The notes under the pieces are model-generated. The model saw only the letters and a program-made list of their open reading frames with translations, did no database searches and was not told where the DNA came from. Shown here piece after piece: positions 22,530 through 49,777 of a stretch of DNA of 64,000 nucleotides. The DNA lies in assembly GCA_963930775.1 (NCBI GenBank), contig OZ005700.1, positions 2,745,476 through 2,809,475 on the forward strand. Reading direction: 5' to 3'. The position numbers and the translations under genes are program-made. Source of the DNA: Cliona cf. orientalis. Its lineage: Eukaryota > Porifera > Demospongiae > Clionaida > Clionaidae. How positions within the stretch are numbered: position 1 is the first letter of the stretch; each line of letters begins with the position of its first letter.

Positions 22530-22691
22530 CAATGATCCTTTCACTCAGTTTCAGCACGTGTCTAATAAACCACGCCACAAGGCTGAATCCATACCGCGCA
22601 TGCGCATTCGATATAATTTTGGAAACACTGTGTATGTAGCTGTGTTTGTCAAACAGACCTCACCTCAGGCTACTAGCTACTAGGCTAGATC
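22530..22691. promoter_or_regulatory. Putative bidirectional promoter, PAP2 / DED-protease
   Basis: A compact divergent intergenic region with the perfect NRF1-type palindrome CGCGCATGCGCA at 22595-22606. The same layout recurs at 49568-49777, and PAP1 has the site too. It probably drives both genes. Confidence 0.6.
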
Positions 22692-25600
22692 ATGGCTGCT
22701 GGTGGTCGAGGTAGTGCTCTGACAGAATTATTTAAGATCGACGCTGAATACGCTGTTAAATCTGAGAAGCACTACACCTTTTGCTTCTTGGCCGATCCGT
22801 TCGTGGACGGTCCAGCTCGAAGCGATTTCTGGAGCAAGAAGCTGTCCGCCACGAAGCGGGTGTTTGAGAATCAATATGGAGATGAAGCCATACCCTTGAT
22901 GTGTATGATCCTCTTGGATTGTGGCGACTCTAATTCAAGTGATCGGCTGGCGAAATACGCCCCGTCTCCGTTTGCTGGCTGGAAGGTGAAGGAAGAGAAA
23001 AGGATAGCGTACAACTTGCGTTGTTTATTTGTGAGTATTGCGAGTAAGCTGGACTCTGAATCCAGGGAAAACATGGTTAAATTGCTACAAGAGGAGCTGG
23101 ATAACCGTGAATCGGTGGGAACCAAATATCAGACGGTTTTGCTGCTACTGGAAAAGGCCCATCAAGCAGGCGTAATTTCACCACAAGAGCTGACTCAATT
23201 AGAAGAGTGGCTTGGATTCGTTGAAAGAGATGACTTGATCAAATTGTACTTTGAACAGTTTGATCCCAATAAGCAATTTCCAGGTAGATATAATATAACA
23301 CATGTAAAGTACATGTACCGTTTTATAATACTTCATTTGGGTAAATGGCATGAAACTACAAATACGCTAGCTATGGTATAGGCTGGCCATAATGTCGTGC
23401 ATTTGGGACATGGGATAGTGATCATGCAAATTAGTGATGTCAATCATGCCCTCCCTACCCATAATTATTATCGAGAAGTTTAGTTGGGTGGTACTATAAT
23501 AATATTATAGTCATACCAACTTTCATTGTCCAAATCCTTCATTGGCAGGGCTGATGCTACTAATAGTCCGGGTAGCTAAGCACCTTGTCTAGTGACCATT
23601 CATTTTAGCCAATTTATTACAGGCCATGAACAGATGCAGGAAGCAAGCTCTCCTCCTCCAGCAGTCGAAAGGCAGTGCAATAAGACTACTGGACAAAAGT
23701 GTGGGTCTAGCTTCCCCCCTCCCCCTTTCACTGTGTTGTACTCATAGACTAAGTGTGTTTATTCTTATGTAATTCTTCTATTATTCTAACCAATAATAAT
23801 TATTATGCTTGCATACCAATGACACTTATATGGCAATTTAAATTCGCCAAATTTAATTCTCGCCATGCACTATACATTACTGTCATGTCATTGTGGTAGT
23901 CTTGTGATAATTATCAACCATCAATTTGTAACAGTATTAGGTATTCTTTGTGTTTTTCATTTTCAGATTCAAGATCAAGGTCTTCATCTCATGGTTATCG
24001 ACCAACTTTGGGTGAGTAGATTTATATAATATAGCACTTCAAGTACCGTAATGTCCCGGGCAAGCACCCATGTACTGCATTTTAAGGGGCCAATGTCATG
24101 TAGCAGCCTCTATATAAATGTATGGAAATTATATCCCCATGCGGACCCAAAATCGTTAAGTGCCCATGGGCACTTACACGGGACACTACGGTATAATATA
24201 TGAATATTGCACCAGATCTGCCTTTAAAAGTTTTGATCAGACAATCTTATCATTCTGTTATAGCGTCCTATGGAAGCTCTGATCAATACTCTAAGTTCCG
24301 AAGTGATAGCATAGGTGAGCTCACTGCAGCTGGAGTCGTTTAATCATTATAAATTTGGGGTACTGTATAATATTATACCTAGGCATTGGGATAATTAAAT
24401 AGTTTCATATATTTTTGTATTAGGAAGAGTACACAACTCCTGTATGTTGGTACTGCACTTATGTTGTGAGATGGCAAGTACATGATTTATTGGGGTGAGC
24501 CTGAGCGAGCCCCACATAAACGTGCAAATTTTATGTTATTATTATGGTACGTCGGTCACGCGATATTATATCCCCACTAAGGCTCTATGAACATAAATGT
24601 GAAATATTCTATTGCGTATTTTCATGCCTGGGCTACGTATATACGTAGTTCTAATTTAGCAAATTGCAAATTTACACCAGTGCTTGATGATCGATGACCG
24701 AGCAAGCTACCTGAGCTACTGTACCATGCCGTACAGAAGTATACTAGTGACACGCAGGGACTGTTTGGGGCGAGCCTGAGCTGAGCCTCTGAAAGTCTCT
24801 TGTCAGTAGCTACAACTCAAAAACTTTAATAAAGCCCGCATAGCATGATAGATCTTGAAGACCACTGATACAGATCGAAGCAAACAATGACAGACAGTCT
24901 CATAGTGCCGTGTAGGCCTGTGGGTCTACAGCTGCATGATAGTCCCCTCCATCCTTCAGTGCCGACAGTCAATACAAAGTTTACTATTGCCTCTGTTATC
25001 AGAGTCATCAGTGAGCAGCACGTCTAGTCTATCTTTATTGTGTTCTTAGCAGGTTCTTGCGCTATTGAGCTGATATTGTCATTGACAGGCTCTATCTCGC
25101 TCAGAGTCTCCTCCTTTGGAGCCTTCTGCCTGTTTCTGTACAGCGCGGTACGGTAGCTTGCTTGATCAATGCAAGCACGAGTGTAAATTTGCAATTCACT
25201 AAATTACAATGGCGTATAATATACGGCCCATGTCCCGGGCATGAGAATGCACAATTGAATGTTTCGTGTTTATGTCCGTAGAGCATCACTGGGTATATAA
25301 TTTTACGTGATCGACGTACCATAATAATAATATGAAATTCGCGCATAGCTGTACCGTTTATGTGGGGCTCGCTCAGGCTCACCCCAAATAAAAGGCTCCA
25401 AGGAGGAGAGAGCGAGACAGAGCTCATCATTAGCTCAACAGTGCAAGGACCACCTAAGAACGCGATAAAGATATATAGACGTGCTGCTCACTGACTCTGA
25501 CAACAGTGGCAGCTAAACAATTATTGACTGTTGGCACTGTAGGATAGACACTGTGTCATTATGTGGAGGCGTGACTATCATGCAGCTGCATACACGGCAC

Positions 25601-28600
25601 TATGAGACTGTCTGTCATTGGGATCTGTGTCAGTGGCCTTCAAGATCTATCGTGCTATGGCTTTATTACAGTTTTCGAGTCGCAGCTACTGACAGAGACT
25701 TTCAGAGGCTCAGCTCAGACTCGCCCAAACAGGCCCTGCATGACACTAGTATAATATTTATTTATGAGGACTGCGTGGCCACAACCCAGCTATCAGCTAC
25801 ACTCATAAAATTAATGGTATTCTTTTGAATGCATTGTAACGACGCAAATGTGATCCCGACCCGTTCGCGATACGCCGATACGTACGCCGCCGCGAAACGC
25901 TGGACGATATGGATGGGAGGGGCTGGAAGGTCAGGGGATGGGTTGCGAATGGTTAGCAGGGTTAGTGTGTGAGGGGCTGGGAGGTCTGGGGATGGGTTGC
26001 GAATGGTTAGCAGGGTTAGTGTGGGAGGGGCTGGGTTGTATAGGGTTTATCTATAAAATAGTTGAAATAATGTCTGCTAGCAGCAACAATGGTTGTGGCT
26101 GAGTGCTCTAATGTATTGGACAGAATAGAGCGGGTTCGAATCTTGCCGTACACTTTGACTTTTTTTCTTTTTTTTTCCCTGTCGAATTTTTCTAAGTGTT
26201 GATAGATCACATTTGTGTTAGATCGCATTTGCGTCATAACATGCGTGACACATAATTGCACACCAAGGTCATGTGATGTGCATCATGTCAAATCTCCTCT
26301 GGTGGGGTTAGTTCTGACCAAATACAGCAGCACACCTGCAACTACACGGCCATCATGTGTAAGGTCATGCACTGAACATGAAATCCATATTGCTGTTGTC
26401 TGTGGTTAGGCTTACACACATAGGGACTGTATACGTACTCTTTCTAATACACTCTTGATTCCATTGATTCTTGGTAGATACTTGGTGTTGCAACGTACCA
26501 ATATATTAAATTTTTGTGATATTACTAAATACACCATAATATTATATGAGTGTCGCACATTTAGTCTAGTATCAGAAGAATTTAATATTATATTGGTGCG
26601 TTGCAAAACCAGGTATTCACCCCATTCTTACTTTCAACACTAGTATCATCCCAAGGCATAGGCTGCTCCTGTGTCTTCATTGTTATGCACAGAACCACCC
26701 CCCTCCAATTTTCCACGTGTAATATTGAAATCGTAGGAGTGGACAAGGCTAATTTTACATACTATGTATTATCTCATTGATTACCTCGTAAGCCCCAGTT
26801 TACATTATAGGCTTTTGAACCGCTTTGGAAGCCAGCTTAGTATGAATGTGCTTAACTGCTTTATAAGCCGCCTTCTAAATTTAATTGGTTTGTAAACCAC
26901 GTCTGGGAGGTGGTTTGAAACCGGTTCAAACCTGTCTAGGATATGCTGCTGTATAAACTGTCCAGTATAAACGCTAAGCTGCTTATATAGCTACATAAGC
27001 TGGATTACGGCCCTATGTGTAACACGATTAAAGCGCATTCCATAACGGTTTAGTCTAAGCCAGCTTACAAATGGGGCTATAGATTATGCCATATAATTAT
27101 GTAATACCTCATAACCACAGAAAAGCAAATTGCTACCAGTCTAGCTCATGGCAGGTGGAGGTCATATCCGGGTCAGCCGGCTCACTCCTTGCGTATGCAA
27201 TACAGAGCATGCGCAGTTAACCATGCCCACAAATGTTTGGGCACATGATGGATGCGAGGCCCGCTCGCGCTAGCGCTAGCTAGCTGGCTCGATCGATCGA
27301 GCGCTTTAGCGTTTACAGCAGGGGCGGATCTAGGGGGGAGTTGCTGAGGTTGCAACCCCCCAAACAATTTTGAGCAGCCCCTCCCACTTACGTACAAGGC
27401 TTACTATAGCTTGGCACAGTAGCTGCCACTGTATGGTTAGCAGCAGACAAGCTTATAATTGGCCTCAAACCAACAGGTAGTGCACAGTGGTTAGTGGTAC
27501 ACCCTGAACATGGCTTCAGCTATGAATAATCTACTGTAGACCACATGAGTCAGCTGTGGTGCTAGGCGTGGTAAAGCTCTATACTTACAGTGTTACAGTG
27601 CCTTACTAGATCACAGTCACTCCCTGGGGCGCGAGATGATGATTAAAGTGGGCGTGGTCGCAAAATATTCGCACGCTTTGCGCGCAATTATACCTATCCA
27701 AAGTTTACGGTATTTGTATTAATGCTTCCACGTTTATCATAGAGAAACTCTTAAGATTGAATATACAGTCACTGTCACTAGAGCTGACAATGATCAATAA
27801 ACCCTGATAGCTAGATGTCTACCAGAGAGATTGGCGCTAGCTAACTCTCTGTTCTTTTTTCTATGTATAGATCTGCTCTAATATACTGACACTCAAACAA
27901 GCCATTAGCTGAATTTATCTTTCTGTTAATGCCAAACAGCCATGTTATTGGTCGTTCGGATAATTAGAGCAAGTATGGTACACCAGGTCTGCCTTTGATC
28001 AGATGCTCTTGTCTGTTGTAGCGTCCTATGGAAGCTCAGATCAATCCTCTAAGTTCCAAAGTGATGATTCAGGTGAGCTCACTGCAGTTGGAATAAGTAT
28101 CGTAATCCCGAGCGTGCATGCACAGCAAGGCTTAATTAGTCTGTCATCATTAGCATGAAAATCGCCTTAACTTAAGATCTAAGTATCTGAGCAACTCAAA
28201 GATTGAAATCATTAAAGAAGTTGCTTCAAATAGTTTGGTAAGGCCCAGGGAGCATCATAAACACTGCTTTTTTATTGGCTACATGCACCTACATGTATAA
28301 ACCGCATCCACTGCTGGCCTGCTCATGTGCACAACCTAGCATCTAATCTAGCATAATATGTAGGTAAAGGTTATCAACAGGCTCAGACATTCTCTTGTAG
28401 CACTCATCTCCATGCAAGTGGATGCAGATGCAGTGTTTTCTCTATATAATTTTTCACCAATTTTGATCACTCTACTTAATATAAAATGTAGGTCTCAGGA
28501 TGATGCTATGTGACATTAATGACATCATGCATTTGATTCTTTCTCAGCTCTTGCACTTGATGTTTCCACACATAATTTATTTTACTAATCTTATCCAAAT

Positions 28601-31600
28601 TCCCGCTGCAGAGGATAAAGGACCCAGAGATGTCGCAGACATGGTTTCCGGTTTGAAGCTGGAGCAAGTTCAACCACACTTTTCTGCTCATGCAACCTCA
28701 ATATTATGTAGGTAAAGGTCATCAACAGGTGCATGCTAGCAGATACTACAATGCATATCAGATAGATGTACTGCTGGATGCAGATACATATGTGCTCTAC
28801 AGACGAGTTGTGATGTTTAGTACCACACTACAACTAAATGATTTGAAGGCAAGCTTTTCAACGATTTCAACCGATTTGTTATGCTTACCAGTCACTCAGA
28901 TGACTAGATCTAGAGATCTGTCCACAATATGATAGACAGATAACAGACAAACTGATTGCTTTTAAATTACACACATATAGGGTAATAATTATGCCTTTCT
29001 ACCCAAAACTAGTTCCTAGCCTTTAAGTGACTATTTGGATCAGGCCTGAAATGCAAGAAAGATACAATGATGTTTGGTCAACCAATCAGATTTAAGTATT
29101 GAGCGGGTTTTTTTTAATATTTGGCGCCAAAATGACCTATGTATACCCTTCTAGTATTACTCTACCCTGTATGCATGGTAAAGTAATTGGTTCTGTCTGT
29201 CTATCAGCACATAAATTCACCAAATCTAGGGATCTAAGCACCTGAGTGACTCGAAACCATAACATATCAACACTTGATCTTATTATGTTTGACACGGCAT
29301 TTGAGCATAAGATGATAGGGTAAATGAAAACCTGCCTCTCTGGCTACAGAACTGATAATAATGCATGCAACTAAGATCAAACATAGCATACTTTGGCAGA
29401 AAATTTATTCAAAAACAGATTGACTGGACTGATGGGGCTGGCAGTTTCTCTCAAAAACTAGAGCTCTATAGAGCACATACCCCTCGCGCACATTGTGCAA
29501 TCTATAGAGTTTCTTTTGTGTACATGGCTAGCTATATAATTTTGTGAGCTTCGGAAAATTAGTGGAAATGCTGCTTAATGTGTACGTAGCTACCAGAGAT
29601 CCCAATGACAAAAAGCACTCTCTCTGCACCAGATCTATCTGTATAGCTGTGTTACATTATGATTTGCAATTGAGGGCTGCAGATTTCAGGTCCGTCAGTA
29701 GATTTCACGAGTATGCATTATTGATTTTGACGATCTTTATCAGTCATGTTCTTCGCTACTTAGTTGTGCGCATGAGCAATGGACATGCATTATGCATTGA
29801 TGAATTGAGTAGGCACTGTCGATAGGCGTGGCTACGTTAGCCAACAAAAAGGCACTATTTGTGACGCCCGTGGACCGTGTCCATCGATTTGACGCACACT
29901 GAAGACAGTTTTTCGCCAGAGTCGATTGATTCGTTGTGCTTACGAGTCGCTTAGATGCCTACATCTCGAGATATGGCGACTTTTGTGCTCACGACAACGG
30001 CGACACGACCAATTATTACGAATGCGTGCGTGCGGGGTAATGATTGAAGTGCGTGTGGTTTTACCAAAAGTGGGTGTGGCTTCTAGAATTTCATATGCAT
30101 ATTACATGCCACAGTATACAGAACCCTCTTTAAGAAATCCTGAGTCCGCCACTGATGAAGCTTGATAGATTTGTTGTATTCATGAGTCATCCAGATATCT
30201 ATTTTATGTAGATAACTGACAAAACTGATTGCATTGCTGCACATGCATGTATGCAATGCTGCACATGCATGTATGCAATACAGTTAATCTTAGCTGGAGT
30301 CTTAAGAAATATTGTAGGCAAGTTTGCTTTCATATCTGAGTTGGAATGCAGGGTTCGAAAGTCCCTTTTTCCACCTACATCCATAGGGCCTATACATTTC
30401 CAATCACACGCCATGTTTATGTTCAACCATTTGCCACCTTAATGTTAAGAAGCAAAGAAGGCAGTACGTGGTGATCATTTCCACTAGTTTCGAACAAAAC
30501 AAAGTGTTTTCAACGAAATTCACACAATGCATACCTTGAAAATGCCATAAGAGCCCTTATTTTCAATGTACCAGTGCTGCCAAAAAACTTGTATTTTGAC
30601 CCTCGTCGCATGCGCGAGGGGTATGGTAATTGTTCTGTGTGTGTTTATGTGTGTGTGTGTGTTACCATGCCAGCTGCTACATACCTGGTTTATATGATGC
30701 AAATAAGGTACCATCAGGCTTTTTACGGCATTTTCAAGGTATGTATTGTGTGGATTTGTTGAAAATGCTTCGTTCAAAAGTTCTGGCAACATTTGCTGAC
30801 CACCATGGCCTTCTTCGCTTCTTGATGAGTTGTTGAAGAGACAGCGATGGCTTCATTTCAAGATTAGTAGTGTGTAGCTCTAGTGATAGTTCTTAGAACT
30901 TGACTGACTCTTCACTGATCTCAGTAGGCTATCAACTACACTTCTTGGCTTTACTATGTTCCCAGACCCCGCCCCAAAAAGAAAGGGAAAGGGTCTGGGG
31001 ACTGGTGAGCGTTTGCTGGGTTTGGCCGGCTTTGCACCGACACCACCAGCGCTCAAATAAACCTCGAATCCGATTGGTTAGTAGGCTCTGCTGTTACATT
31101 CCTGCAGGCAGTGAGTCATATGACTATGCCAAAGCTGTGATCTGATTGGTTTACCTGAAAACAAAACTGCTGATGATGCACAACCAAGAAAACGCTCGCC
31201 AGTCCCCAGACCCTTTCCCCTTCTTTTGGGGACGAGACTACTAGATATGCTGATCTGGCATGCACGTGGTACTATTATTACGTAATTACGTGCAATACAT
31301 ATTAGTGCATTCTTGTGATTACTCTCTACAACTAGAGCTCATAGAGCACCATACCCCGCGTGCCATGGCAATATCACCCATGGCCATGCCTCTTCTTAGA
31401 GGACTCTATTCTTTGTAGTTTAATCTCTTGCTACTGACAAACTTTTTCGTTCCCTTCTGAGATCCATGCATGATCATAAATGACATTAATCTTTGTGCTA
31501 GAAGCATGCTGTAGAGAAGCTTGAGCATGCGCAGTAGACTCTAGAAGCTCAAGCATGTGCAATTGACTTCATAAGCTACTAGGTGGGTGTGTCAGATGTA

Positions 31601-34600
31601 GGCGTGTCCGACATACTTGCACGATTTGTAGCTTCCCTGAGTACTGCCTAGGGTTGAGAACCAGACAAAGGTGTTTTTTCGCTGTCTTACACCATTTATC
31701 CCATTTATTGACCATATCTTCGCTTAGATGTTGATATTTGCTGATTTTTATGCTGACAGACAGCAGACAATAGACGATGACGACAGACGACAGACAAACC
31801 GATTGCTTTACCCCCTTGCTGTGCATGCGTGCACGCGGGGTAACTATAGTAAACTGAACTATACAATAGCAGTATTGCTTGTTTGCAACATGCACACTAG
31901 CTATAGCTAATGCCCTAAGGGTTTTGCACTATAGTGCTTCATTAGAGTTTTTGAGCTTGAAAATTGGCTAGTTAGCATATACATAATTATTAGGATTATT
32001 CTACTGCTTATTCCATAAGGCCAATACATTTGCCATGGTATTCATGTCATCACTTGAACAGCGCACTGTTGGATGTTATGTATATATTTCCTATACTACT
32101 AAGTGCTATTGAATGAGAGATGCATTGTTGTTTATATGCTGTATATTGAGTGAAGTGGGCGCTCCCGATTCATAATATACTAGTGTGATGTATTTCATTG
32201 TGGGGGCGAGCGTTCATGAGTTTGTGTGTGCATGACACACGTAGCTCTGCCGGGCACACATTCTGCAAGAGATGTCGACATCAGCACGCGCGCGTCTCGG
32301 ATTCTATGGTTCTGGCCGTCCTTTTATTCAACTACTTAGCAATGGACTTGTAAATATGAGTTTGTTAGAGTGCCACAATCTGGAACGTACTGACCGTAAG
32401 CTTACTGCGAGTCTGATCCTTTCGTTTGTCGCTTCCATCCCGAGCTTGAGCTCTCTTTTACCGCGCTCAATCTCTGTTGCTCTCTTCTCTGTCTATTTCG
32501 TTCTCTAGCTAATGTTGGATCCGACATCCTCATTCTTAGACCTTTCTTTCCGATTCTCTCGATCTCCTTTGACTCTGGTCATTTGATTTGAGTATGCGCA
32601 AATAATTGGCAAAGAGGCGTGGCCCAATAGAGAGCACGTGTTATTTTCGCGCGCATGCTCAGTCAGCCAAAGTGGACACACGGACAGACAAACTTCCGCC
32701 GAACAATCAAATGTGGGGCTCGCTCACGCTCGCCCCCAAATATATCCAAACAAGCACCTGGGTGTTTATACACCTGGTAGTGGATACTTGCCCAGGAACT
32801 AGAGTACAATGATACAAGATTGGATCCTGAACAAGTTATATTGTATCATCATACATTCACACCCATGTATGTACACTCTATTCAGGGGTGGATCTAGGAA
32901 TCTATTAATAATTATGGTGGGGTTGTAAGAAAAAGATTTGTAACCACGCCCATTTTTAACCACAACTACCCCCAAACATCGATCTGTCTTATCTGCTGCT
33001 AACCATACAGAAACCCTGCAGTGGCAGCTACATGACATTGTACTATGCCAAGCTATAGTAGGCCTTGTATGTAGAGGGGTAGGGTTGCTCAGAAGTATTA
33101 TTGGGGGGGGGGGGGGGGGGGGGAGGGGGGGAGGTTGCAATCCAGGGGTGTACCTTAGTTATTCTTGTTGCCTGGAAACCCCGCTTGGCAGTCAAATTCA
33201 GAGCATGATCTTAGGATCTTAGTATGATTTAACTGCTAGGAAACCCCCTTAGTTTCCAGATTTCAATCTGCAGGTACTAAAATCTCTTAAAACTTAGCCT
33301 AGATCTCCTCCTCTGGTGCTTTTTTGTGATAATCTTGCAAACTGTTGCTAAAACAGTGATCGTTAATTAGAGGGTATGGCCCAAAAGTGGACGTAGTTGC
33401 TAATTTTTTTTGCCTATGCTTCACGTGCAACTGCTTAGACACCCCCTGCATAAAATCCCTGGGTACGCCCCTCCAATCCCCCTCCACCCCTGCTAATCCA
33501 TTATGATTTTGAGCATACCGTAGACCAAATTGCTGTATGTAGCTAACGTGTAGGTAGCTTACTCAGACTACAATGTATGTGTAACCTAAATTACTGGTAT
33601 ACTATCTAAGTGAAATTATTCCCATTATTAATTGCATCAATACTGTAAACTTTTAGACTAAAGAGATCCCGCCAAAAAGAAGGGGAAAGGGTCTGGGCAC
33701 TGGCGAGCGTTTTCTTGGTTGTGCATCATCAGCAGTTTCAATTGTTTTCAGGTAAGCCAATCAGATCACAGCTTTGGCACGGTCATATGACTCATTGCCT
33801 GCAGGAATATAACAGTAGAGCCTACTAACCAATCCGATTCGAGGTTTATTTGAGCGCTAGCGGTGTCGGTGCGCGCACCCAAAGCCGGCCGAACCCAGAA
33901 AACGCTCGCCAGTCCCCAGACCCTTTCCCCTTCTTTTGGGGGCGGGGTATGGGAACGAGACTATAAAGCTTTATGCAAATGATATGATTCAAGCGCCCAT
34001 TGCATATGTTTGTATTGCATAATTTTTTATTGCACCATACTATATTGCAGTTTTAAATAGACATTTTCGAGACTCCTATTTTGACTGATTCACATAATTT
34101 CATTATGCACATAAAATATTACTTTACGGTATTCATGTGATGTCATATTCAGCAATGGATCCTCCCAGTTCTGTTCAGCTGATGAATAGACAAGGTCAAT
34201 TCAGGTGGGTACCCATTGACTCCTGTAGCTACTCCCGTTTGTTATGCCATCACAACCAACTGCAGTACTCCGCGTAGTGCTATGACTACAAAACAAGCCA
34301 CTACCAGCTACACAATTTCAGAGCCAACAAAAGATGTGATTGTTAGTGATTTCAGTGTTAAGAATGTGGTCTATGAAAATCTAAATTTGCTAGTCACACC
34401 TCAAGGTACGTGCATGTATATATGTTGTAGAGTATGAGGGGATAGAGATAAAACAAGTATGTTTGATGTCATAACCTGGATGAAAAGGAACACATGCGTG
34501 TACGTGTGTGGTTTATTGTTGCAAATATACATCGGCTACTAAGCAATAATGACCCAGAGTACCGCCCACTATATGCTTGCTTCAACATCAAAACACCGTT

Positions 34601-37600
34601 GTCATTAATCATTTTTGAACTGCTTGCACTCACGTGTTGAGCATGACTAGATATTGAACGGTCAATGTTTCACGTATATCCACATTGTACCAAGGGCTTA
34701 TAGGGTCTATATACGCCCTTGGTAACTCACGCTAATCATGTATTTGTGCAGTCCTTTTCATCCAGGAATCATGGGATAACGTGGCCAAGAGTGTATTATA
34801 GGAAGAGTATGTAACCACATGGGTGAGCAAGCTCTAAGCTATGTAGTGGTTGCATCATGTGTGCCACCTAACCATTGCTATACATATTTAGTTTACACAG
34901 TGATCATACATGTACATGTGGATACCCTACAGTATTATTCATAGGTTTGTGGCCACACATAATCATGTACTTGTACAGCATTAATTACCCTGTGTGCGCG
35001 CATGCACAGCAGGGGGTAAAGCAATCGGTTTGTCTGTCGTCTGTCAGCATAAAAATCGGCAAATCTCAACATTTAGGCCAAAGTAGGCTCAATAAATGGG
35101 ATAAAATGGTGTAAGATAGCAAAAAAAACGCTTTCTGTCTCGTTCTTAACCCTAGGCAATACCCAGGGAAGCTACAAATCGTGCAAGTATGTCGGACACG
35201 CCTACATAGGACACGCCCACCTAGTACTAGCGTGTCCAAAGAATTTCGAAAAGTTCTGAAAAGTGGTACAAGGATGCTACAGGCATGAAGAGCAACCTTA
35301 GAGCAGCCGAACAATATGCATATTGCTGGGGATTTACTCTGTTTTCTTGGTTCTACAACCTTTTGAAGTTACTCACTACTGTCTCTCTTTTTGCTCCTTG
35401 CACAGTACTACAGACATGGCACCATACAAACTATGGGCCACCAAGGGTCCCCAGATAATCTACAATATCTCAGCTCTGGTTAGGAGTCAAGTCACGAAAC
35501 AAATTGCACCAGATAGCGCACAGAATGAGCTATCATTTGACCTCTTAACCATGTAAATTGGTTGCACAGACACGCCGCTAGCTTCATTTTTGTTTGTATT
35601 AAGTTTATATGGAGAAAGTGGTTTGGATGGGTATGCCATATTGCCTTGCAATGTTTTTATTTTAATTACGATTATGTTACAAATACTGTTGGATAGCACT
35701 TGCAAATACCGGTAGCATGATAGTGGGACTTCAATACTGCTTTAGGTTACTGCTTAACCTGGGGCCTCTGTATATTAACTATCTTTAGAGCCCAGCAGAG
35801 TGAGTTTCTTTCCACAATACCAAACTATAACTATTTCTATAATGAAATTACCTAAAAAGTATATTCCACAAAAATGTAGGCCATCAATGACCTGCAATGA
35901 TGCATATTATTGAAATCAGCACTAGAAAAAACCTATATGTCACAGTAAGGACCACTAAAAGTTTTGGAGGTAACAAGTACTCACAAACCTAGGCAGAAAC
36001 AGCAGAAATAAGTGCCAGAAAAATTATGTCTTGATGTTGCTTACCATCAAATCCAGAAAGTACAGCAAAAGAGCTGCCGATTGACGTGCGAAGCATGGAA
36101 AACGGTCGAGAATTGGCTTGTGGATATGAAAATATGTAATGTCACTTTATGGTGCCGCGTTTAGATAGAGTATAACGCGTAAAAACAAGCGACGCATTTT
36201 TGCGGGTTAAAATTATCCTTTGGACTCGCTACTAGTACCTTATGAAGTCTATGGCGCATGCTTGAGCTTCTCTACTATAGGAGTCTCTACTGCACATGCT
36301 CAAGGTTCTCTACTGCAGCATGCTTCTAGCAATGTCCTTTGTGATCATGGATCTCAGAAAGAACAAAAAAGTTCGTGAGTAGCAAGAGAATAAACTTCAA
36401 AGAATACAGGTCTCTAAGAGTCTATGCGCACGGCCATGGGCAATATTGCCATGGTACGCGGGGTATGTGCTCTATGAGCTCTAGTTTTGTCTGGTATCTA
36501 CTATGTGCTGTAATGGCACCATCTCAGTGCAATACTGACATAAACAGAAGTTGCATACTCTTCCTAATCCTAATCCACTCTTGATACGTCCCAAAACATT
36601 GACCACGCCCCACACTAACACAGTCTTTAAGATACAAAGAAGGCTGTTTTAGGCCTTGCAGCTAATTAGGGGGGTGCTCGAGCTCCCTGAGCCCCCCCTG
36701 CTGGACATGCCCCTGCTACATGACTAATATTATGCTTACATGCTCAGAGAAAATCATCTCCCTAACTACTTGTTAAAATTAGAAAATGGCCTTCATTTTT
36801 CATTGTAATTGTTTCAGGTAATCCAATGGCTTCTAAGATTCCATTCATCATACCACCACAATTACTTGAATTTAATTCGACTGGTGCTGATTTTGTTGGC
36901 TTTGATGAGATCAGAATCCAAATTCCCCCTCATGCAATCCCAGAAGGAAGCACCAGACAGCTCAAAATTGGTGTTTGCCTGTATGGCCCATTCTTATTTG
37001 AAGAGAATTATAGACCAATCTCTCCAATCTTGTGGCTTTGTTTACAAGGAGGGAATACCCATCTTGATAAGCCTGTGAATGTGACCCTCCCACACATCCT
37101 CCCTGACTTATCCAAAGAAGAGCGGGCTTACTTCAGAGTCAGATTTGCAAAAGCAAACCATGACTGTGTCACTGATGCGAGTGGAGAATGGGTGTACAAG
37201 TTCCAGCCATCTTTGGATAAGCCTTTCTACTTCAGTGGTGGAGGCAAAGGTTATGGAACTCTCCAAACAGATCACTTCTGCTTTATGTGTCTGGTAGCTG
37301 AAAATAAGATAACTGATGGTGAGGCTAAACGTGTGGGGTACTGCCTTACTAGCGTGCAAGGTCCTTCTCGACTCCATGTTTATGCAAGCTATTTCCTGGA
37401 GACTTGTATTGCTGTAAGTGTACTATAAGGGTTAATTAAGTGTAAACTGAGTACCATATACACAGAAATTTCGCCAACTTCACCACCACCTGCTCTCATT
37501 GGCGAAAATAATTATTTGTTATGCTAAGTTTTGTTAGGATTGCATAGATGATATGGTGACCTTTCGGGAATCAAGTTTGGCGGATTGGCCTCAACCAGTG

Positions 37601-40600
37601 AGAATAAAAAAATTTGGCAGATTTTAATTCGGCGGATGGCTGGCTGATCTGCCAAACTGCCAAATTTTCTGGTTATATGGTATACGTTATTATAATAAGT
37701 ATTTGTCTCATTTCACCTAAAAATGTCACTGGCCTTGAAATGGCTTATTAGGAAACTTCGTACTATGATTAGCTGAAAGCAGGAGCAGTCAACTTGGGGG
37801 CCTGCCCGCCTCTGAGTCTCGTAATAATAGTTATTATGTAAGTTATATCATGGGTACAAGGGATCTATGTAATATATTGCACCGAAACTTGAGGGCGCTT
37901 CACTATAATATGCCGTAGATCCCGACATATTATCATTATAGTATAGGTGCATATCGATAACCCTTGGAAATCTAGCTACTCTAGATTATATGTTTATCTG
38001 GGCCTTCAAATAAAATCTTTCTGCAATGAATATTTCAAGGAGCACAGCAGCTATGTACAGGTTGTGTATTGAGGTGCAGGTCTCTACTTTGGCCCTCGCA
38101 GTTGTTTAAATAACATAGAGACCAAACTGAGATTATAATAATATAACAGACTTGTACCATGGACTATGTGGCCCTGACAATGCGTCGTCTGGTAGGAATG
38201 ACAGCGCTGGCTGTAAAAGTCAACCCAGCAATACAGCAAAATCTTTTGAACTGTCATGACTGTGAAAGCTGTGTAGTATTTAATTACGCTTGCTATCAGC
38301 TCATGGCCATGCTTCAAGAAGGCTAAGATGCTTCGAACTTCCACAACAATAGCTTTCTTGTACTCAGCATCCAGTTACTCCATCCACTTATGGCCATTAC
38401 TTCACCATGGTACATACGTGTAGTGCTATAGACTTACATATTGATGTACATGGGTCTGGGGTAGGCTCTGATATTGTGGTATAATGTTCTTTGATAAGGT
38501 GGTTAAATATGACGTTGGTTATGTGCTGGTATAGGGTCTGTGAAGGAGCTGCACCACTACTTTTAAAAAAGGAGGTCCAGTTATCGGCAAACTCTTTAGT
38601 GGGTCTCAGTGTATAATAGCGCTCCCAAAATTTCTCTTTTTGGGTAGAAATCTTTTTACACTCTGTGAAGCACCCCTCCAAAGTAGCCATGGACTAGTTG
38701 CCCAGCAAATGCTTCCACACTATCTTCATTTTTAGTGCACCAAGTCAGCACACACTCTGCACCCTTTCTTGTTGTAACAGCTGGCTCATCCTTCAGAACT
38801 GACTGTGATAAGGACACCTATGAGTGATAATAAATCTTAACTGGTATTGATAACACTATGTCAACACACTTACCGTGAGCTTCCCTGGACATCCTAAAAG
38901 TGTGTTGACCACAAAACAACTGCTAGCCACGCTGTAGCAAACTGCTATAATATTATAAGTGAGCACGTACTTGAGTGCTTATCTGCAATTCGCCTGGTAA
39001 AGTGCAGCTGCATATGCGCATGCAATACTACTTGGGCATATATGGGACACGGATTGCCCGCGCATATATATTGCTCATGTGAGCAGTTTCTACGTAAGTC
39101 TATAATATTTATGATCAGACCTTGTTTATAAATACAAGGTTTAATGATTTATCAACCTCATAATTATGGAGAACTTTCATTGGTCAGAATTTAATTACAA
39201 CCATGGTACAAAATATTAATTATCATATACTGTGACCTTAATATCATTCATACATGACATTGTATACGTATGTATAGGCATTAGAGAAACAAATGGATAA
39301 GGATGATAGAAAACTCACTTCGGGGCGTTTTACTTTACGCCAGGGTTGTGATCACATAATAGTTTCTTGCAATCCTAGGGAAGCTGTTAACATGATCCCT
39401 AGCAATGGAAAGGTGTGTACAATTAACACAGAAATTACATCAACATGCACTATGATATGTTTTTGAATCATATTATATAGATTCGTGTAACAAATATTGA
39501 TTTCTGGGGCAGTGGAAAGAGTTATGAGGAAATGAAGCTTGAACATGACCAAAAGATGTATCCACCTAAAGTAGTAATTAGTACAACAGATTTGAGCTCC
39601 ATGCAGAAGATTACAGTGATGTTTTCCAATCTGAAAGAAGGAGATGATCTTGATATAGATGTTACTCTTTGTCAAGGTGCATATAGTTATGTTATTACCG
39701 CATAATAATAATATTATTATACAGTCGAGCCTCTGATAACGGACCCTCCGAGAAGCGGACAACCTCTCTACAGCGGACAAGTGTCGTGTTACCGATTGAA
39801 TTTAGCATAGTTATATAGTACATTAGCAACCTCCGAGAAGCGGACGCTTCTCGATTCCGGACAGCGGACAAGATCCAAGCTTCCAACGTGACTTTTCAAT
39901 GCAAAACTGCCTCTAAATAGCGGACATCCGGAAACCACACCCTTAAAATTAACGATGCCATGCCCACCTTTGTCGCAATCTAGACGGTCAAGTGCATGCA
40001 CGATAATAATTATTAGCCTTGAAACAATTTGGAGTATATAGCCAGTACTTCAGAAACAAAAAAATTCAGCCTGTGTTATGTTGATACTGAAAACAGAACA
40101 TACCAACCACTTGATTATCATCTCTATACTGCTCTTATTATGCATTTCAGTGCACTATATAGAAATACAATCAAAATGGGTTGAAAGTTCATGAACCTCC
40201 GAGATAGGGACAACCTCCGAGCAAAGGACAAGAGGCCCATTCCCAAAGTGTCCTTTGTTCGGAGGCTCGACTGTATGTTCTAATATGTATGTATAGGCAC
40301 CACCCTAATTTAGGCCCCCTTTAAGACCTGCACAATTATTACCCCGCGCGCATGCGCAAGGGGGTAAAGTAATCGGTCGTGTCGTCGTCATTGTTATTGT
40401 CATTGTTGTTGTCGTTGTTAGCACAAAAATTACCATATCTCGAGGTCTAGGCACCTGAGCGACTAATAAGTACAATGAATCAGTCGCATTTGGCAAAAAA
40501 CGAACTTCAGTGTGCCTCGAATCGAGGGATATGGTCCACAAGCGTCACAAATAGTGCCTTTTTGTTAGCCTTCGTAACCACGCCTATCGACAGTGCCCAC

Positions 40601-43600
40601 TCAATGCATTATGTATACAGGCCTTGTGCTTTCAGCTCATGCGCATAGCATTGAATAATTATGGATGGTAAAGGTCGTCAATAATGCTAGTGCCACATGT
40701 TTGGCGGACTGGCCTGGAATGCAAAGCCCCAGAATGTAAGATACCTATATCTACCTAGTCTAGATCTGGTGCAGAAAGAGATTCAGTGATGTTTTGGCTG
40801 ATATCACCAAGAGCCCTATATATTATACAACCAGGGGCTTATGGGGTGTATAAGTCCTTGATGTAACCAAGCAACAACAAAACAAAACCTATAGATTGCG
40901 CAATGTGCGCGCGGGGTTTGTGCTCTATAGAGCTCTAGTTTTAGTTCTAATTCAAGGTGCCTTTCCGAATATCAATTATTTCTAGGCAGTGCCTATTTTA
41001 ATAATTGGAATATATCATACTCACTCCAATTATTCAAACATTCTAATAGCCCAAATGGAAAGTTTACGTAACTTACTTCCTTTCTAATTCATTGAACATC
41101 TTGAACTTCAAGTTTTCTCACCAGCTCTAAATCAACAAAACAGCCACGCGGTACAGCATGGCAGGAGCTAGCTTGAGACAACTCTTAATTCCACATTCAT
41201 CAAAGATTGTGGCTACCACATCTTGGACAGCATATAAGAGCGGAAAGGTAACACGGACTTAAGCTTACACCATAAACCCAAACCCAAACCCCTCTACTAT
41301 CTAAGCTTACACAGATGGTGATTGTTTTGCGATCTCTCAGAGCTCTAGAGGCGACGATTATAAACCTATAGTTGGACATCGACTGCTGTTTCTTTGTTGC
41401 TATAATAGTGCTTTCTTCATTTGCACCAGATCTGTTCTATTTATACTCGAACAAGCCTTTGCCCAACTTTCTATTTAATACCGAACGGTGATATTAATTA
41501 TTATTTTTGGCTGTTTGGATAATTAGAGCGAGTATAGTATTGCCACACTTCGTTGCAACAGGTTAGAATATAATATTATACCCCTCCATAGCTATATTAA
41601 CTATTATATTATATCCTGCTTCCCATTGGTAAATCTACACAACTAATGTGACAAAGGAAACATCTTATAATTGTCAATTACAAGTTTATACAAGTAGAGG
41701 GATTTATCAGGCCACAAACAGGGATTTATCACTTATAACCATCCTTGTTGCCTAGGATACAGGCTAAATAGGATATAATATTATTATTATATAGTTTACT
41801 TGTATAATTGTGTATCCATCTGTTTGACCCCATCTATTTACTGCAAACTAATAATCTTCAACATGTAAGCGGGTACAACTACGTTTTCTACTATGTTTTG
41901 GCCACTACCACAAAGTGACAATTTGTGCGAATTGAGTCAATATAATTATACTGGTCACATTTACCACATCGATTTAACAGAGCTTGAAAAAACAGCCGGA
42001 CATTGGATATTTTCCGCACATTCTGCCCAAATATCCAAGCATAGCAGCTGAGCACTGTGGTTGCCTACCAACTAATTGCTCCAAGTGCTTCTGGATAACA
42101 GTATACATTAGTACTACTATGTGTCAACCCACAGTCATATTTGTCCAGTCACAAGTGAATGCCATGCCCTTTATATTCTGATATAATTCCATGGGGCTAG
42201 TGAAGGCAAACAAGCCTCTCTGCTATGTATAATAATTAATTGCATCATGTTATGTACAAAATTTAATATTGTTTGTACAGATGCAGGTATTATGGAATGG
42301 CCATCTGCAGATGTTTCCTTTACACGACAAGAAGGTATGATCACAAACATGATGTAATGCACGACTGTGTGGTCAGGTGGCTATACACACTACTAGGGTG
42401 ATGTAAACCATCGAGGGGGCGAGCCTTCGCTCACAGTATAGTAAAGGGTTGTCCCCTCTATTATCTTCGATCCAAAGTATATGTAAAAGTAGCTATAGCT
42501 ATCGTCATTCTGAGCACAATCTATTGTAATCAAGAAAGGAGGAAAAATATATAGTTTAATATTAAACATGCAGTTGTGTACTACATTCCCAGTATGTCGG
42601 GAGCTTTGGCCCCTATAAGGCTACAGAATTGTCTGGACAACTATAGCTAGCTTGGACCTAGTCTCGTGAACCTACTTCCACAGCGCTGGATGTATTACAT
42701 CACCAGCACACGGAGAGAGAGGGTCTGGGTGCTTCACCATAATATTGCCTTGGAATGTAATCATTGTCAATGTCACGTGTAAAATTAGAAATAGACTGCA
42801 TGGCAACATCATTAGCCATCACGCTGCGAGCGTCTACATGAACTCGATTATAACATTTTTGTGGACGCAGGCCTCGATATCATGTGACCACTGCAATCCC
42901 ATTGGCTCTGCCGACATTCCTGCAGGCGACACAGCGGAGTGTCCAGAGTTCCCAGACCCTCTCTCTCCGTGTACTGGTGATGCAATACATCCTGATAGAG
43001 GCTGAAAGATGTGAGCATTCAATCGATTTTATACATTTGTAGAGCATCCACTTGGGCTTTAAGCGACTACCACGAGATCACACCCCCAGTATGATTAATT
43101 AGTTATGGCTTGATGATATCCAGCCGAAATCTGAATATCAAAAGTATACATGGGGGGTTTGATGTACGTGTGGGTGGGGACGAGAAACAGAAAAAATGAT
43201 TTTGCATGGCCTTATACTAGCACCTGGAGTAACTAGTGAGGCTATTACATCCAGGAACACTGTATGGTGTATGGAAGTGATTGGCTATGCTTCACCAAAT
43301 TGTCCTTGATCGTAACCTATGCATGGACCTTGACCTATTGGGTGGGTGCCAGAATATCTAACCTCAAAATGTCTAAATCTCAAAATGTCTAATAAGTTCC
43401 CAGGATGTCTAATCCTCTAATCAATTAGCGGGTACACACTGACTGCATACCTATTGACAGGGGTTGTATGTAAGTAGCACACTTCACAACACTGATCAAT
43501 TAGTGGGTACACATTGATTGTACCTGTTGACAGAGGTTGAGTAGTCATACATTTGTATATAAGTAGCACACTTCACAACATGCTTACAACCACGATGGAG

Positions 43601-45583
43601 TTCATCACCAACCAGAAGGGTAACAAGTCACTGCTTTGGAATGGTAGCAGATTCACTGTCAACCGCAAGATGGACAATGGAACTATCTACTGGAGATGTT
43701 GCAAGAGAAGCTGCCCAGCAAGAGTCACCACACAAGATTCCGAGCTAGCCCAAACGAATGGGCATAATCATCCGGTAGATCCCACTGAGACGAGAGTGGA
43801 GGAAATCAAGAGCAACCTGAGAAAGAGAGCAAGAGAAGAACTCACTCCAGTTCCTCGCATCTATAATGAAGCCCTTATTGAACTATCAACTCAAGAAGAT
43901 CGTGACAGTGTGGCTGCACAGCTACCTATGTTCAGCTCACTCAAGTCATCTTGGGAATTCATTGAGCTGGTACAGAAGGAGCAGGCTTCCACTGAGGTTG
44001 CCATTGAGCAAGTTGCTGCTGGCAGAAGGAGAAGAGCAAAGAGAAGGAAGGTGGTACAGCATGAGGAGCAAATCAAGAGGCTAACTGACGAGTTTCGAGA
44101 TGGTGATAGGTCCCTTGACTCACTTCTGAGCAGCATGTCACATTGTGTTGTATTTTTTGACTATTAAAATTAATTGTATTGCTTCATTAAATACATATAA
44201 ACAGTTGTTGGCACCTTTTAGACATTATGGGATGAATTACTTTAGTTAGACATTTTGGGATTTAGACATTTTAGGATTAGACATTCTGGGAACAATTCGA
44301 CCTATTATCCCATGATCCAGTGAGATAGCGTCCCGGGCAAGCACCCACTCCTGGGTTAGCGCCCATGTACTACATTTCAAGGGGTCAATGTAGTAGCTTC
44401 TATACCAGAATCCCAGGTAAGCACCCACATGGGCCAGATCACGAGTAATTTTTAAGCGCCCATGGGCTGTCCAGTAGTACCACGGGACCAGTTACATCTC
44501 TATGGTTTTAATGACATTTAATTGTGCTCACTCATGTCCATAATATCAGAATAGAGCACTAAAAGTGTCACAGGCATCCACATCTTATGGGTCTCTTTAG
44601 CAATTGCTAGTCCTCTTGATTTTCATATACTCCTTGACATAATATTAGGTGATAAATCTGACTTCAAGATGACAAAAGCAAAAGCAAACTATAGTGCACA
44701 TGTTCCCCTTCGTTGGAACCTTGAGGGGGCACATCAAAAAGGAGTTGATGGAGAAGGAATTACTATAGCTGTACTTGATTCTGGTGTCAATCGAAACCAT
44801 GACGCTTTTGCTAAAACAATTCTAAGTGGAAGGAACTTCATTGATGGAAAAGGACATGACTACTGGTGCTCTAACCGAGAAGCACATGGCTCTATGGTGA
44901 CAGGTATTATTACAAAGTACGCTCCTAAGGCAGAGATATATGTTTGTTGTGTGTCTGAAGAGAACAGATTCAAACCAAAAGCCATCATCAGAGCACTTGA
45001 ACATCTACAAAAAAGTTATGAGGATGAACATATTAGCGATAAAAAGAAATGTCAGGTGATTGTTATGTCATTTGGGCATTACAATAGGGAAGAATATCCA
45101 GAACGTAAAAAATTGATTAGTGATCTAGCCTGTAAAGGTGTGATTTGTGTGGCTGCTATAGGTAACTATGGTCTATATGCTGACCAGCTTGCTTACCCTG
45201 CTCTTCTTGATGAAGTGATTGCTGTTGGTGGCTTAACTGAGTTTGGTCACGAACCAGCAACGTTTAACCCTCCAGGTAAAATTGATGTGTATGCTCCTGG
45301 AGAAGCTATATGTTTTCCAGCTGATACTAGCAACAGGAAGTATCGAAAGGGTGGTGGAACTTCTTGTGCAGCCCCAGCTATCGGGGGAATTGTGGCTCTT
45401 CTCATGCAGCTGGCACGTAAGAGTGACGATAAAATTAACAACACCAAAGCAATTAAGATGATCTTTTCACATATGAAAAGAAAAGTAACGGAAAAGAAGA
45501 TAGAAGTCCTTGACCCAAAATATTTCTTTGATGAATATGGAACACCAGATAAATTCAAAATTTTTTTACAAAAGTATAACTGA
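22692..45583 (+). CDS. DED-ZU5-UPA-subtilisin (S8) protease, novel architecture
   Basis: Eleven exons join in phase to 969 residues: 22692-23283, 23623-23700, 23967-24011, 24264-24314, 28022-28072, 34229-34405, 36818-37413, 39278-39412, 39481-39676, 42281-42334 and 44649-45583. Residues 1-198 are helical, with a DED-like fold at about 105-190 (KLLQEEL... LLLLEKAHQ... DDLIKLYFEQF). A Ser-rich linker follows. A ZU5 domain (IPFIIPPQ... IQIPPHAIPEGS) leads to DHFCF at 483-487, where PIDD1, NLRP1 and CARD8 self-cleave at HF|S. A UPA-like region (RLHVYASYFLETCIA... EKQMD) spans about 500-640. The C-terminal S8 domain (about 659-969) keeps Asp702 (VLDSGV), His738 (AHGSM), Asn831 (IGNYG) and Ser897 (GTSCAAP). 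There is no signal peptide or S8 propeptide. Exon linkage across the large introns is inferred from phase and paralogs; two separate genes remain possible. Confidence 0.72.
24044..24193. mobile_element. MITE with TACCGTA ends (GTCCCGGG family), copy A
   Basis: A 150-bp element with inverted ends TACCGTAATGTCCCGGGCAA and CGGGACACTACGGTA. A copy sits in the same intron of paralog B (51482-51647), so this insertion predates the gene duplication. Confidence 0.85.
24490..25750. mobile_element. Composite foldback element in DED-protease intron
   Basis: Long inverted arms at 24743-25110 and 25395-25750 (ends ACTAGTGACACGCAGGGA and its inverse) make a foldback of about 1.0 kb. A second inverted pair, GGGGTGAGCCTGAGCGAGCC at 24492 and its mirror near 25363-25385, overlaps it. 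A single-arm relative lies at 54935-55565. No transposase is seen. Confidence 0.75.
26086..26180 (+). repeat. tRNA-derived SINE-like fragment
   Basis: TGGCTGAGTG resembles a tRNA A box and GGTTCGAATC a B box about 45 bases later, with a plausible T stem and then T runs (pol III terminator-like). The acceptor arms do not pair, so this is a decayed SINE or tRNA pseudogene rather than a working tRNA. Confidence 0.4.
27740..27980. repeat. Truncated copy of the CGTACTCGCTCTAATTA element
   Basis: The right part ends GTTCGGATAATTAGAGCAAGTATGGTA and resembles the right halves of the elements at 41013-41540 and 47735-49161. Confidence 0.55.
28612..28715 (+). CDS. Alternative terminal exon of the DED-protease gene (short form)
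   Basis: After the acceptor CTGCAG, a phase-1 exon reads EDKGPRDVADMVSGLK... then stops. It matches the final exon of paralog B (EEKGPKDIEVMVSGLKIK-stop at 52766-52821). Joined to the first five exons it would make a DED-only protein of about 305 residues. It may compete with the long ZU5-protease form or be an inherited relic. Confidence 0.6.
29457..30040. repeat. Interspersed element, TAGAGCTCTATAGAGC / GCGGGGTAA family
   Basis: Starts ACTAGAGCTCTATAGAGCAC and ends GTGCGTGCGGGGTAA. The interior contains a block resembling CGCTTAGATGCCTACATCTC, shared with 40339-40940 and 61243-61757. It is non-coding. Confidence 0.65.
30963..31243. repeat. Palindromic element, copy 1 (AAAGGGTCTGGGGACTGG)
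   Basis: The left arm with AAGGGAAAGGGTCTGGGGAC and the right arm with GTCCCCAGACCCTTTCCCCT form a long inverted repeat. A second copy lies at 33667-33955. Confidence 0.75.
31330..31843. repeat. Interspersed element, TAGAGCTC / GCGGGGTAA family
   Basis: Begins ACTAGAGCTCATAGAGCACC and ends GCACGCGGGGTAAC. The interior resembles 34985-36486 in inverse orientation, with shared GGTGGGTGTGTC and GACAGACAAACCGATTGC blocks. It is non-coding. Confidence 0.6.
32880..33490. repeat. Repeat-like intron segment with poly-G tract
   Basis: Contains AGGGGTGGATCTAGGAATC, related to 27322 onward, and a poly-G run at about 33104-33130. No gene is recognised; the poly-G is a likely assembly weak point. Confidence 0.45.
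33667..33955. repeat. Palindromic element, copy 2
   Basis: Arms match 30963-31243 (AAGGGGAAAGGGTCTGGGCA and its mirror). It lies in the same long intron of the DED-protease gene. Confidence 0.75.
34985..36486. repeat. Composite interspersed element, GGGGTA / TAGAGCTC family
   Basis: The left end carries GCGCGCATGCACAGCAGGGG and the right end TGCTCTATGAGCTCTAGTTT, the family termini in inverse orientation to 31330-31843. The middle has unrelated AT-rich sequence, possibly a nested insert. No protein is recognised. Confidence 0.55.
37456..37682. repeat. Diverged MITE of the AATTTGGCGG family
   Basis: Ends ACCATATACACAGAAATTTC and CTGGTTATATGGTAT with internal TTTGGCGGA blocks, an eroded relative of 14006-14227. 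Confidence 0.55.
38438..38690 (-). pseudogene. Unrecognised coding-like exon, opposite strand in intron
   Basis: An ATG-started frame of about 85 codons ends at a good donor (ATAT then GTAAGT) and contains FWERYYTLRPTKEFADNW and LYQHITNVIFNHLIKEHY, which look protein-like. Upstream sequence is coding-like in another frame, and a further minus-strand frame lies at 38344-38084. I do not recognise the family. It may be a degraded gene or transposon relic inside the intron. Confidence 0.3.
39722..40273. mobile_element. pogo/Tigger-like MITE with TA duplication
   Basis: A 552-bp element: left end CAGTCGAGCCTCTGATAACG, right end TTCGGAGGCTCGACTG, flanked by TA on both sides. The CAGTYRAGCCTC terminus resembles Tc1/mariner-pogo elements. 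The interior has repeated AGCGGACA/TGTCCGCT motifs. A relative lies at 59480-60036. Confidence 0.85.
40339..40940. repeat. Interspersed element, GCGGGGTA / TAGAGCTC family
   Basis: Begins TTACCCCGCGCGCATGCGCA and ends GTGCTCTATAGAGCTCTAGT, inverse to 61243-61757. No coding sequence. Confidence 0.65.
41013..41540. mobile_element. Uninterrupted relative of the CGTACTCGCTCTAATTA element
   Basis: Left end ATACTCACTCCAATTATTCA, right end TTGGATAATTAGAGCGAGTA. It is the intact, roughly 530-bp form of the element that at 47735-49161 carries a nested insert. Confidence 0.75.
42688..42992. repeat. Palindromic element (GGATGTATTACATCACCAGC)
   Basis: A 305-bp inverted repeat with outer arms of more than 40 bp (GGATGTATTACATCACCAGC... 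and the mirror ending ...GTACTGGTGATGCAATACATCC). Confidence 0.75.
43349..44289. mobile_element. TIR element carrying a FLYWCH protein gene
   Basis: An element of about 940 bp. The left end CCAGAATATCTAACCTCAAA and the right end TTTAGGATTAGACATTCTGG are inverted repeats built from AGACATTTTG units (about 45 bp, near 90% match by eye). It encloses one intronless reading frame. No clear target duplication is visible. The tandem copy of GCGGGTACACACTGACTG (about 43420-43490 and 43500-43580) lies inside. Confidence 0.7.
43580..44167 (+). CDS. FLYWCH zinc-finger protein (transposon-borne)
   Basis: An intronless frame of 195 codons. Near the N-terminus is one FLYWCH-type zinc finger: FITNQKGNKSLLWNG, YWRCCKRSCPARV and NGHNHP supply the Cys2His2 ligands. 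A basic stretch (RRRRAKRRK) and a helical C-terminus follow. FLYWCH domains bind DNA and occur in Mutator-like transposable elements. No transposase core is present, so the element looks non-autonomous, or the protein could be an accessory DNA-binding factor. It sits in the intron just before the S8 exon and in the same orientation, so it may be transcribed with the host gene. An internal ATG at 43595 is an alternative start. Confidence 0.75.
   Translation: MLTTTMEFITNQKGNKSLLWNGSRFTVNRKMDNGTIYWRCCKRSCPARVTTQDSELAQTNGHNHPVDPTETRVEEIKSNLRKRAREELTPVPRIYNEALIELSTQEDRDSVAAQLPMFSSLKSSWEFIELVQKEQASTEVAIEQVAAGRRRRAKRRKVVQHEEQIKRLTDEFRDGDRSLDSLLSSMSHCVVFFDY
44326..44490. repeat. MITE, GTCCCGGG family, copy
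   Basis: Starts near AGCGTCCCGGGCAAGCACCC and ends CAGTAGTACCACGGGAC, like 24044-24193. It lies between the FLYWCH element and the S8 exon. Confidence 0.7.
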
Positions 45584-49567: not shown

Positions 49568-49777
49568 CACTGATCTTTCAGCACCCGTGGGGCTGGGCTA
49601 CGTAGCTCGAGCCTGATAAACCACGCCCACAAGGTTGTATCCGCACCGCGCATGCGCACTCGGTATTTTGGAAACCCCCTCTTGACTGACTAGTGCATGT
49701 ATTATCTCTGCTAGTACACACACACGCACCTGTGTTTTTCAAACATACCTCACCTCAGGCTACTACTAGGCTAGAGC
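49568..49777. promoter_or_regulatory. Duplicated divergent promoter with NRF1-like site
   Basis: Paralogous to 22530-22691, with CGCGCATGCGCA at 49647-49658. It lies between PAP3 and DED paralog B. Confidence 0.55.

Follow-up and report, generated by a model that had tools for sequence, protein, structure and literature searches.

Genes and exons in the window

The window, i.e. the whole stretch of 64,000 nucleotides analysed here, corresponds to C12:2745476-2809475 in the genome of the sponge Cliona cf. orientalis, of which 149 contigs comprising 217 Mb were searched. Six-frame open reading frames (ORFs) of the window were analysed with Pfam, and exon borders were assigned from splice sites in the sequence. 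This revealed a DED-like exon, a ZU5 exon, a peptidase S8 exon and a FLYWCH ORF which was absent from an earlier sequence-only reading of this DNA. A search against Rfam gave no match. The features relevant to this study are:

22692..23283, plus strand: apparent tandem DED exon with ATG start and phase-1 donor after KQFPG
23967..24011, plus strand: candidate small linker exon of the DED gene, phase 1-1, with pyrimidine-rich acceptor and GTGAGT donor
34143..34405, plus strand: broken fn3-type exon, its second half (34205-34405) phase-compatible
36818..37413, plus strand: ZU5 exon and start of the putative UPA, acceptor phase 1, donor phase 0, in-frame Met-Ala-Ser at 36826
37273..37281, plus strand: His-Phe-Cys motif, predicted self-cleavage site HF|C
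39278..39412, plus strand: first of two putative UPA exons, phase 0-0, with a homologous exon in three sister loci
39481..39676, plus strand: second of two putative UPA exons, phase 0 in, phase-1 donor into S8
43541..44164, plus strand: FLYWCH zinc-finger ORF inside the UPA-S8 intron (PF04500, E 2.1e-13)
44649..45583, plus strand: peptidase S8 exon, phase-1 acceptor, stop at 45581-45583 (PF00082, E 6e-29)
49778..50369, plus strand: DED exon copy 2, a separate gene, 82% identical to the DED exon at 22692-23283
53605..54190, plus strand: DED exon copy 3, a separate gene, 42-45% identical (DED E 9.8e-7, below cut-off)

Translation of the ZU5, UPA and S8 exons from the first in-frame Met, which belongs to the conserved Met-Ala-Ser, yields a protein of 617 residues. 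Its N-terminus may be longer: an upstream coding exon is possible, because four copies of the gene retain the acceptor in front of Met-Ala-Ser and the frame upstream of other ZU5 exons is open. The FLYWCH ORF is probably a separate or transposon-related insertion; no tblastn match to it was found among the loci compared, the sister ZU5-UPA-S8 loci included.

Recurrence of the ZU5-UPA-S8 order

A genome search with the ZU5 exon of the window gave 50 matches, including cases in which a single exon was matched in pieces; the three best (68-74% identical) are located on C15 (two) and C8 (one). A 10-kb stretch around and behind each of these three matches was compared with the window by tblastn. 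The ZU5, small, UPA and S8 exons were found in identical order and on the same strand at C15:7.00 Mb and C8:7.61 Mb, both with an intact S8 exon, and at C15:6.98 Mb, where S8 is decayed. The sister S8 exons are 71%, 55% and, for the decayed fragment, 40% identical to that of the window. All four copies agree in the splice phases of their ZU5 and UPA exons, and the three intact ones also in the phase of the S8 acceptor; in the two intact sister copies, designated A and C, the reading frame is open throughout and gives proteins of 629 and 633 residues. The ZU5-UPA-subtilase order is real and recurrent in this genome, in line with the proposal of the sequence-only reading that ZU5-UPA carries a protease as C-terminal cargo.

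One could argue that ZU5-UPA and S8 are separate neighbouring genes which were duplicated together as a block. In the window, the two parts are separated by the FLYWCH ORF, and for some S8 copies (C15:6.964 Mb, C3:5.54 Mb) the sequence read did not include a ZU5. The window S8 exon contains a Met seven residues in (44669) as a possible stand-alone start, and reading beyond the UPA donor of the window meets a stop at once. However, the phase-1 acceptor of S8 is kept in the intact copies and matches the phase-1 UPA donor, copies A and C contain no Met from the S8 acceptor to the catalytic Asp, and P0004 on another contig carries an UPA-like exon and S8 (48% identical) in a single open frame, in which about 70 residues between the two parts may represent an intron read through. 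Two adjacent genes appear quite improbable, and we infer that the ZU5, UPA and S8 exons form one transcript.

In the sequence preceding ZU5, similarity among the four copies was limited to a repeat-like block of 377 bases, found in the window and the 6.98-Mb copy (87% identical), and to short stretches, as judged from 2.7 kb for the C8 copy and 1.3 kb for the 6.98-Mb copy. Searches of viral contigs with the DED and ZU5 alignments and of genome contigs with S8 yielded no relatives. A protein search with the full model retrieved two ZU5-type proteins and two distant S8 peptidases, and none of the four combined DED with ZU5 or ZU5 with S8.

Two further arrangements were observed. A decayed tandem S8 lies behind copy A and was kept out of the S8 locus count given below. 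At C6:119706-128100, an S8 copy with stops lies about 7 kb from a partial ZU5 with an UPA exon on the opposite strand; this reads as a rearranged or decayed relative of the ZU5-UPA-S8 gene.

The ZU5-UPA part and its predicted self-cleavage site

The sequence-only reading had placed ZU5 and UPA domains between 36818 and 39676. Pfam detected ZU5 there weakly, below the cut-off, as in copy A, and found no ZU5 match in copy C; UPA was not matched in any of the three intact copies. Structure prediction of the ZU5 exon, which the same reading had suggested, gave a fold close to ankyrin-B, UNC5b, CARD8, the NLRP1 FIIND and GAIN domains. The model comprised this exon alone, and the structural alignments with UNC5b and CARD8 reach its end. 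Sequence searches of solved structures with ZU5-UPA returned the ZU5 of ZO-1 as the only match. For the UPA part, the second UPA exon (39481-39676) has tblastn matches at 21 other loci (E <= 1e-3), and exons homologous to the UPA of the window precede Death domains in relatives. The window gene contains a ZU5 domain.

Passages of PMC3210808 describe cleavage of PIDD and Nup98 at HF|S and of CARD8 at SF|S, and an important role of the Phe. In contrast to the HF|S of PIDD, the window gene carries HF|C at this position. Among the 30 aligned rows covering the site (L034 stops short of it), the Cys is present in 30, the His in 27 and the Phe in 14; the Phe is kept in the S8-linked clade and replaced by another residue in the remaining 16 rows. 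The Cys is invariant in alignment A3 as well. The Ser in front of which PIDD1, NLRP1 and CARD8 are cleaved is hence absent, Cys taking its place in 30 of 30 rows. Judged from these residues, the likely self-cleavage site is HF|C rather than HF|S, and the ZU5 of the window, though outside the HF|S and SF|S class, may work like a self-cleaving ZU5 or FIIND. Self-cleavage at a Cys at the ZU5 motif position was not found described in the literature consulted on the site.

Probable exchange of the C-terminal cargo

Sixteen other ZU5-UPA loci were listed, with flanks ending about 1 kb behind UPA, and ten ORFs picked by eye were analysed with Pfam. Nine of these ten showed a Death match behind UPA (E 6e-8 to 0.012), five of them above the Pfam cut-off. 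In an unrooted FastTree phylogeny of 29 ZU5 exons, from which L034 and L036 were left out, the four S8-linked exons formed one clade (support 1.000) with Death-linked exons on both sides of it. As Death domains follow UPA in the relatives and the S8-linked ZU5 exons form a single clade, ZU5-UPA-Death looks like the common form in this genome and the S8 form like a variant, in which the Death cargo was probably swapped for a protease. The C-terminal cargo in the window is S8 and not a death fold (Death or CARD).

The subtilase domain

The S8 domain of the window exceeds the Pfam cut-off clearly (101.7 bits vs 21.8). The catalytic residues named by the sequence-only reading were located at 44777 (Asp), 44885 (His), 45164 (Asn, oxyanion) and 45362 (Ser), and all four are present in both intact sister copies as well. 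Among solved structures, the S8 chains nearest to it are annotated as intracellular serine protease (E 2.3e-20); we take these chains to be of bacterial origin. Since the S8 exon starts only about 33 residues ahead of the Pfam match, no classical propeptide is visible, in agreement with the earlier reading, and the ZU5-UPA part would be a natural candidate for restraining the protease.

Stops interrupt several S8 copies (on C15, C6 and C14), as would be expected if S8 were a degrading or dead enzyme under relaxed constraint and without present function. Against this view, the three intact ZU5-linked S8 copies retain the full frame and all four active-site residues, and dN/dS values among them are below 1 both for S8 (0.35-0.63) and for ZU5 (0.38-0.47). 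We consider decay of these copies very improbable. The small exon and the UPA exon are fast-changing between copies A and C, with dN/dS values of 1.25 and 0.95, respectively.

The DED exon and its proposed link to ZU5

The sequence-only reading had joined DED and ZU5 in one protein of 969 residues. In our model, inclusion of the exon 34205-34405 gave 884 residues. The DED exon is present in the window, 13.5 kb upstream of the ZU5 exon. The stretch 34205-34405, the sole sizeable phase-compatible open stretch found between them, was rejected as a linker, being the second half of a frameshifted fn3-type exon. The complete exon (34143-34405) is 75-78% identical to open exons at C1:3.64-3.68 Mb, but in the window it carries a 4-base frameshift and a 9-base gap and has a coding score of 4.6 bits; an fn3 Pfam match (E 0.005, below cut-off) was obtained for one of the three relatives scanned.

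A single DED-ZU5-UPA-S8 protein, in which the tandem DED is spliced to ZU5 directly or via a small linker exon, would agree with the splice phases: the two exons lie on the same strand, and phase 1 is shared by the donor of DED and the acceptor of ZU5. Continuation of the DED exon into a further exon is suggested by its 14 outside relatives, which all diverge at one place, and the ZU5 exon seems to receive an upstream exon. The phase-1 segment 23967-24011 is a candidate coding linker judged from its splice sites, both of which are kept in DED copy 2 at 51410-51454, within a longer stretch with an overall identity of 84% across 1290 aligned columns. The DED-ZU5 interval contains one plus-strand stretch with a coding score above 20 bits (30636-30815), which lies inside a repeat shared with the upstream region of the C15:6.98 Mb copy. 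At the C8 locus (L049; C8:7615001-7625000, minus strand), ZU5-UPA-S8 is preceded by a COR-type NTPase ORF (E 1.1e-6, not reaching the cut-off) and by three death-like exons, one with a Death match (E 0.016) and two recognised by eye, that have phase-1 donors.

The comparison with other loci nevertheless speaks against such a fusion. DED was not found in about 10 kb upstream of any of the three other ZU5-UPA-S8 loci, and a genome-wide DED search found none on C15 or C8. Within the window, neither ZU5 nor S8 follows DED copies 2 and 3, nor is there another match close by on C12, where the ZU5 exon at 36818-37413 is the only ZU5 match near copy 2. The DED copy on C6 runs to a stop 11 residues past the donor position, as in a stand-alone protein, and the 13.5 kb separating DED from ZU5 contain repeats besides the broken fn3 exon. 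One continuous protein is unlikely; a neighbouring death-effector gene that begins with this DED exon is the more likely reading. The blocks 22640-23747 and 49730-50813, which include DED exons, are 82% identical, and tblastn among the ORFs behind the three DED exons revealed nothing in common.

Subtilase exons behind other receptor-like domains

The 28 S8 matches in the genome were grouped into about 21 loci, and 5 to 11 kb of upstream sequence were read at 13 of them. In eight of these 13, ZU5-UPA (4), Death (2) or NACHT-LRR (2) exons were found upstream on the same strand. Of the remaining five, one has a death-like ORF recognised by eye without Pfam match (C6:7.01 Mb), while no ZU5-UPA, Death or NACHT-LRR was found in the upstream stretch at C15:6.964, C3:5.54, C12:2.15 and C12:1.34 Mb. 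These upstream domains are same-strand neighbours and candidate fusion partners of S8.

At C15:7.02 Mb, S8 is preceded by two Death exons with a compatible phase-1 donor (E 0.001 and 2e-4, neither quite reaching the cut-off), and at C1:2.02 Mb Death matches are found upstream of S8 (E 6.9e-9 and 0.003, one exon above cut-off). Single Death-S8 neighbours could be due to chance, since Death domains are abundant in this genome (150 scored of 1292 first-look candidates). In the C15 stretch (L050; C15:7022601-7032600, minus strand), a protein kinase, the two Death exons and the S8 exon were seen in a row with matching phase-1 sites, and a TSP1-like part (by eye) and further death-like ORFs lie upstream.

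Two S8 copies on C16 have NACHT-LRR upstream (NACHT E 2.1e-20 and 3.7e-18). Here, two tandem NACHT-LRR ORFs are each followed by S8 on the same strand (L057:3-7200 and L062:3837-9569; C16:5.57-5.586 Mb), with half-death-domain-like exons (by eye) and linkers in between that have no Pfam match. By their exon order these are candidate NLR-subtilase genes. The sequence-only reading had assumed a DED-NLR next to the window gene and an inflammasome-like pathway. The neighbouring gene on the minus strand (12008-15262) indeed has a NACHT domain (E 3.3e-16) and a weak LRR (LRR_6, E 1.4e-4, just below cut-off), but its DED-like first exon reached only E 0.13. An inflammasome-like pathway would be conceivable, and is less far-fetched in view of the C16 NACHT-LRR ORFs with S8 behind them.

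A subtilase output may be a recurrent design in this genome. Four ZU5-UPA-S8 loci (one decayed), the Death-Death-S8 locus at C15:7.02 Mb, Death/S8 at C1:2.02 Mb and two NACHT-LRR/S8 loci on C16 suggest, tentatively and with nearly as much to be said for as against, that subtilases serve as built-in output of death-fold and NLR receptors by exon swapping. This would constitute an animal counterpart of fungal NLR-subtilisin pathways, with UPA-S8 as the released protease.

Proposed mechanism and relation to known systems

We propose that the ZU5-UPA-subtilase gene probably encodes a ZU5-UPA protein of the UNC5/PIDD kind, with its C-terminal death domain replaced by a subtilase and with self-cleavage, restraint and release of the enzyme. 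Self-cleavage in the ZU5 part would occur at HF|C, after the Phe and before the Cys; the resulting pieces would remain associated, and the ZU5-UPA fold would restrain the subtilase. Removal or rearrangement of the N-terminal piece would then free or cluster UPA-S8, which could execute a defence or cell-death response by cleaving targets in the cytosol. Gasdermin, the natural guess for a substrate, was not found in a genome search run without positive control.

The ZU5-UPA proteins NLRP1, CARD8 and PIDD1 deliver a death fold, which recruits a protease. If the protease itself is the cargo, as it seems to be in the window gene, this adaptor step would fall away. UNC5, PIDD1 and ankyrin resemble the window gene in the ZU5 fold (ankyrin-B, UNC5b) and in the order ZU5, UPA and C-terminal cargo, whereas the relatives in this genome have a Death exon in the place of the subtilase. 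In NLRP1 and CARD8, whose FIIND corresponds to ZU5-UPA followed by CARD, the effector is the CARD instead of an enzyme, and self-cleavage of the window protein is a prediction. Intracellular subtilisins, whose kind of name the closest solved S8 chains carry, are presumably free-standing enzymes without ZU5-UPA. The title of PMC6220982 refers to inhibition by a pro-peptide.

Fungal NLRs and gasdermin-linked S8 peptidases (HET-Q2 and relatives) likewise have a subtilisin-type protease through which an immune or cell-death receptor acts, according to parts of PMC12881547. In the fungal NLRs the protease is the N-terminal module, while it is C-terminal in the window gene, and the portions of these fungal S8 accounts consulted make no mention of ZU5-UPA. 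Peptidase_S8 is a minor type in fungal NLRs, rare or absent in Sordariales, in sections of PMC12258605. Bacterial polymorphic toxins combine a ZU5 releasing autopeptidase with peptidase toxin domains, and a ZU5 expansion in sponges was previously noted (both in excerpts of PMC3482391); unlike the window gene product, these toxins are proteins secreted by bacteria. The 12 of 26 places of PMC3482391 covered contain no description of an UPA-subtilase. Extracts of two further papers mention NACHT-ZU5 genes in early animals (PMC12909245) and TRADD-N combined with FIIND or UPA-ZU5 (PMC8195603).

Our literature search on ZU5 with subtilase, subtilisin or peptidase S8 and on sponge ZU5, UPA and DED found no ZU5-UPA-subtilase, so that the claim of an undescribed order holds for this combination; as far as searched, it is a new arrangement. 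It hints at a cell-death or immune pathway with a subtilisin output, would show that animals, like fungi, wired subtilases into death-fold signalling, and would allow restraint by ZU5-UPA and the release of an enzyme to be measured directly within a single protein.

Other genes in the window

Three copies resembling what we take to be a purple acid phosphatase gene are located on the minus strand at about 16000-18850, 19700-22550 and 46500-49400, and two of them adjoin DED exons in a back-to-back arrangement. An ORF at 60598-60936, which lies behind the third DED exon, presumably resembles the ribosome-assembly factor LTV1.
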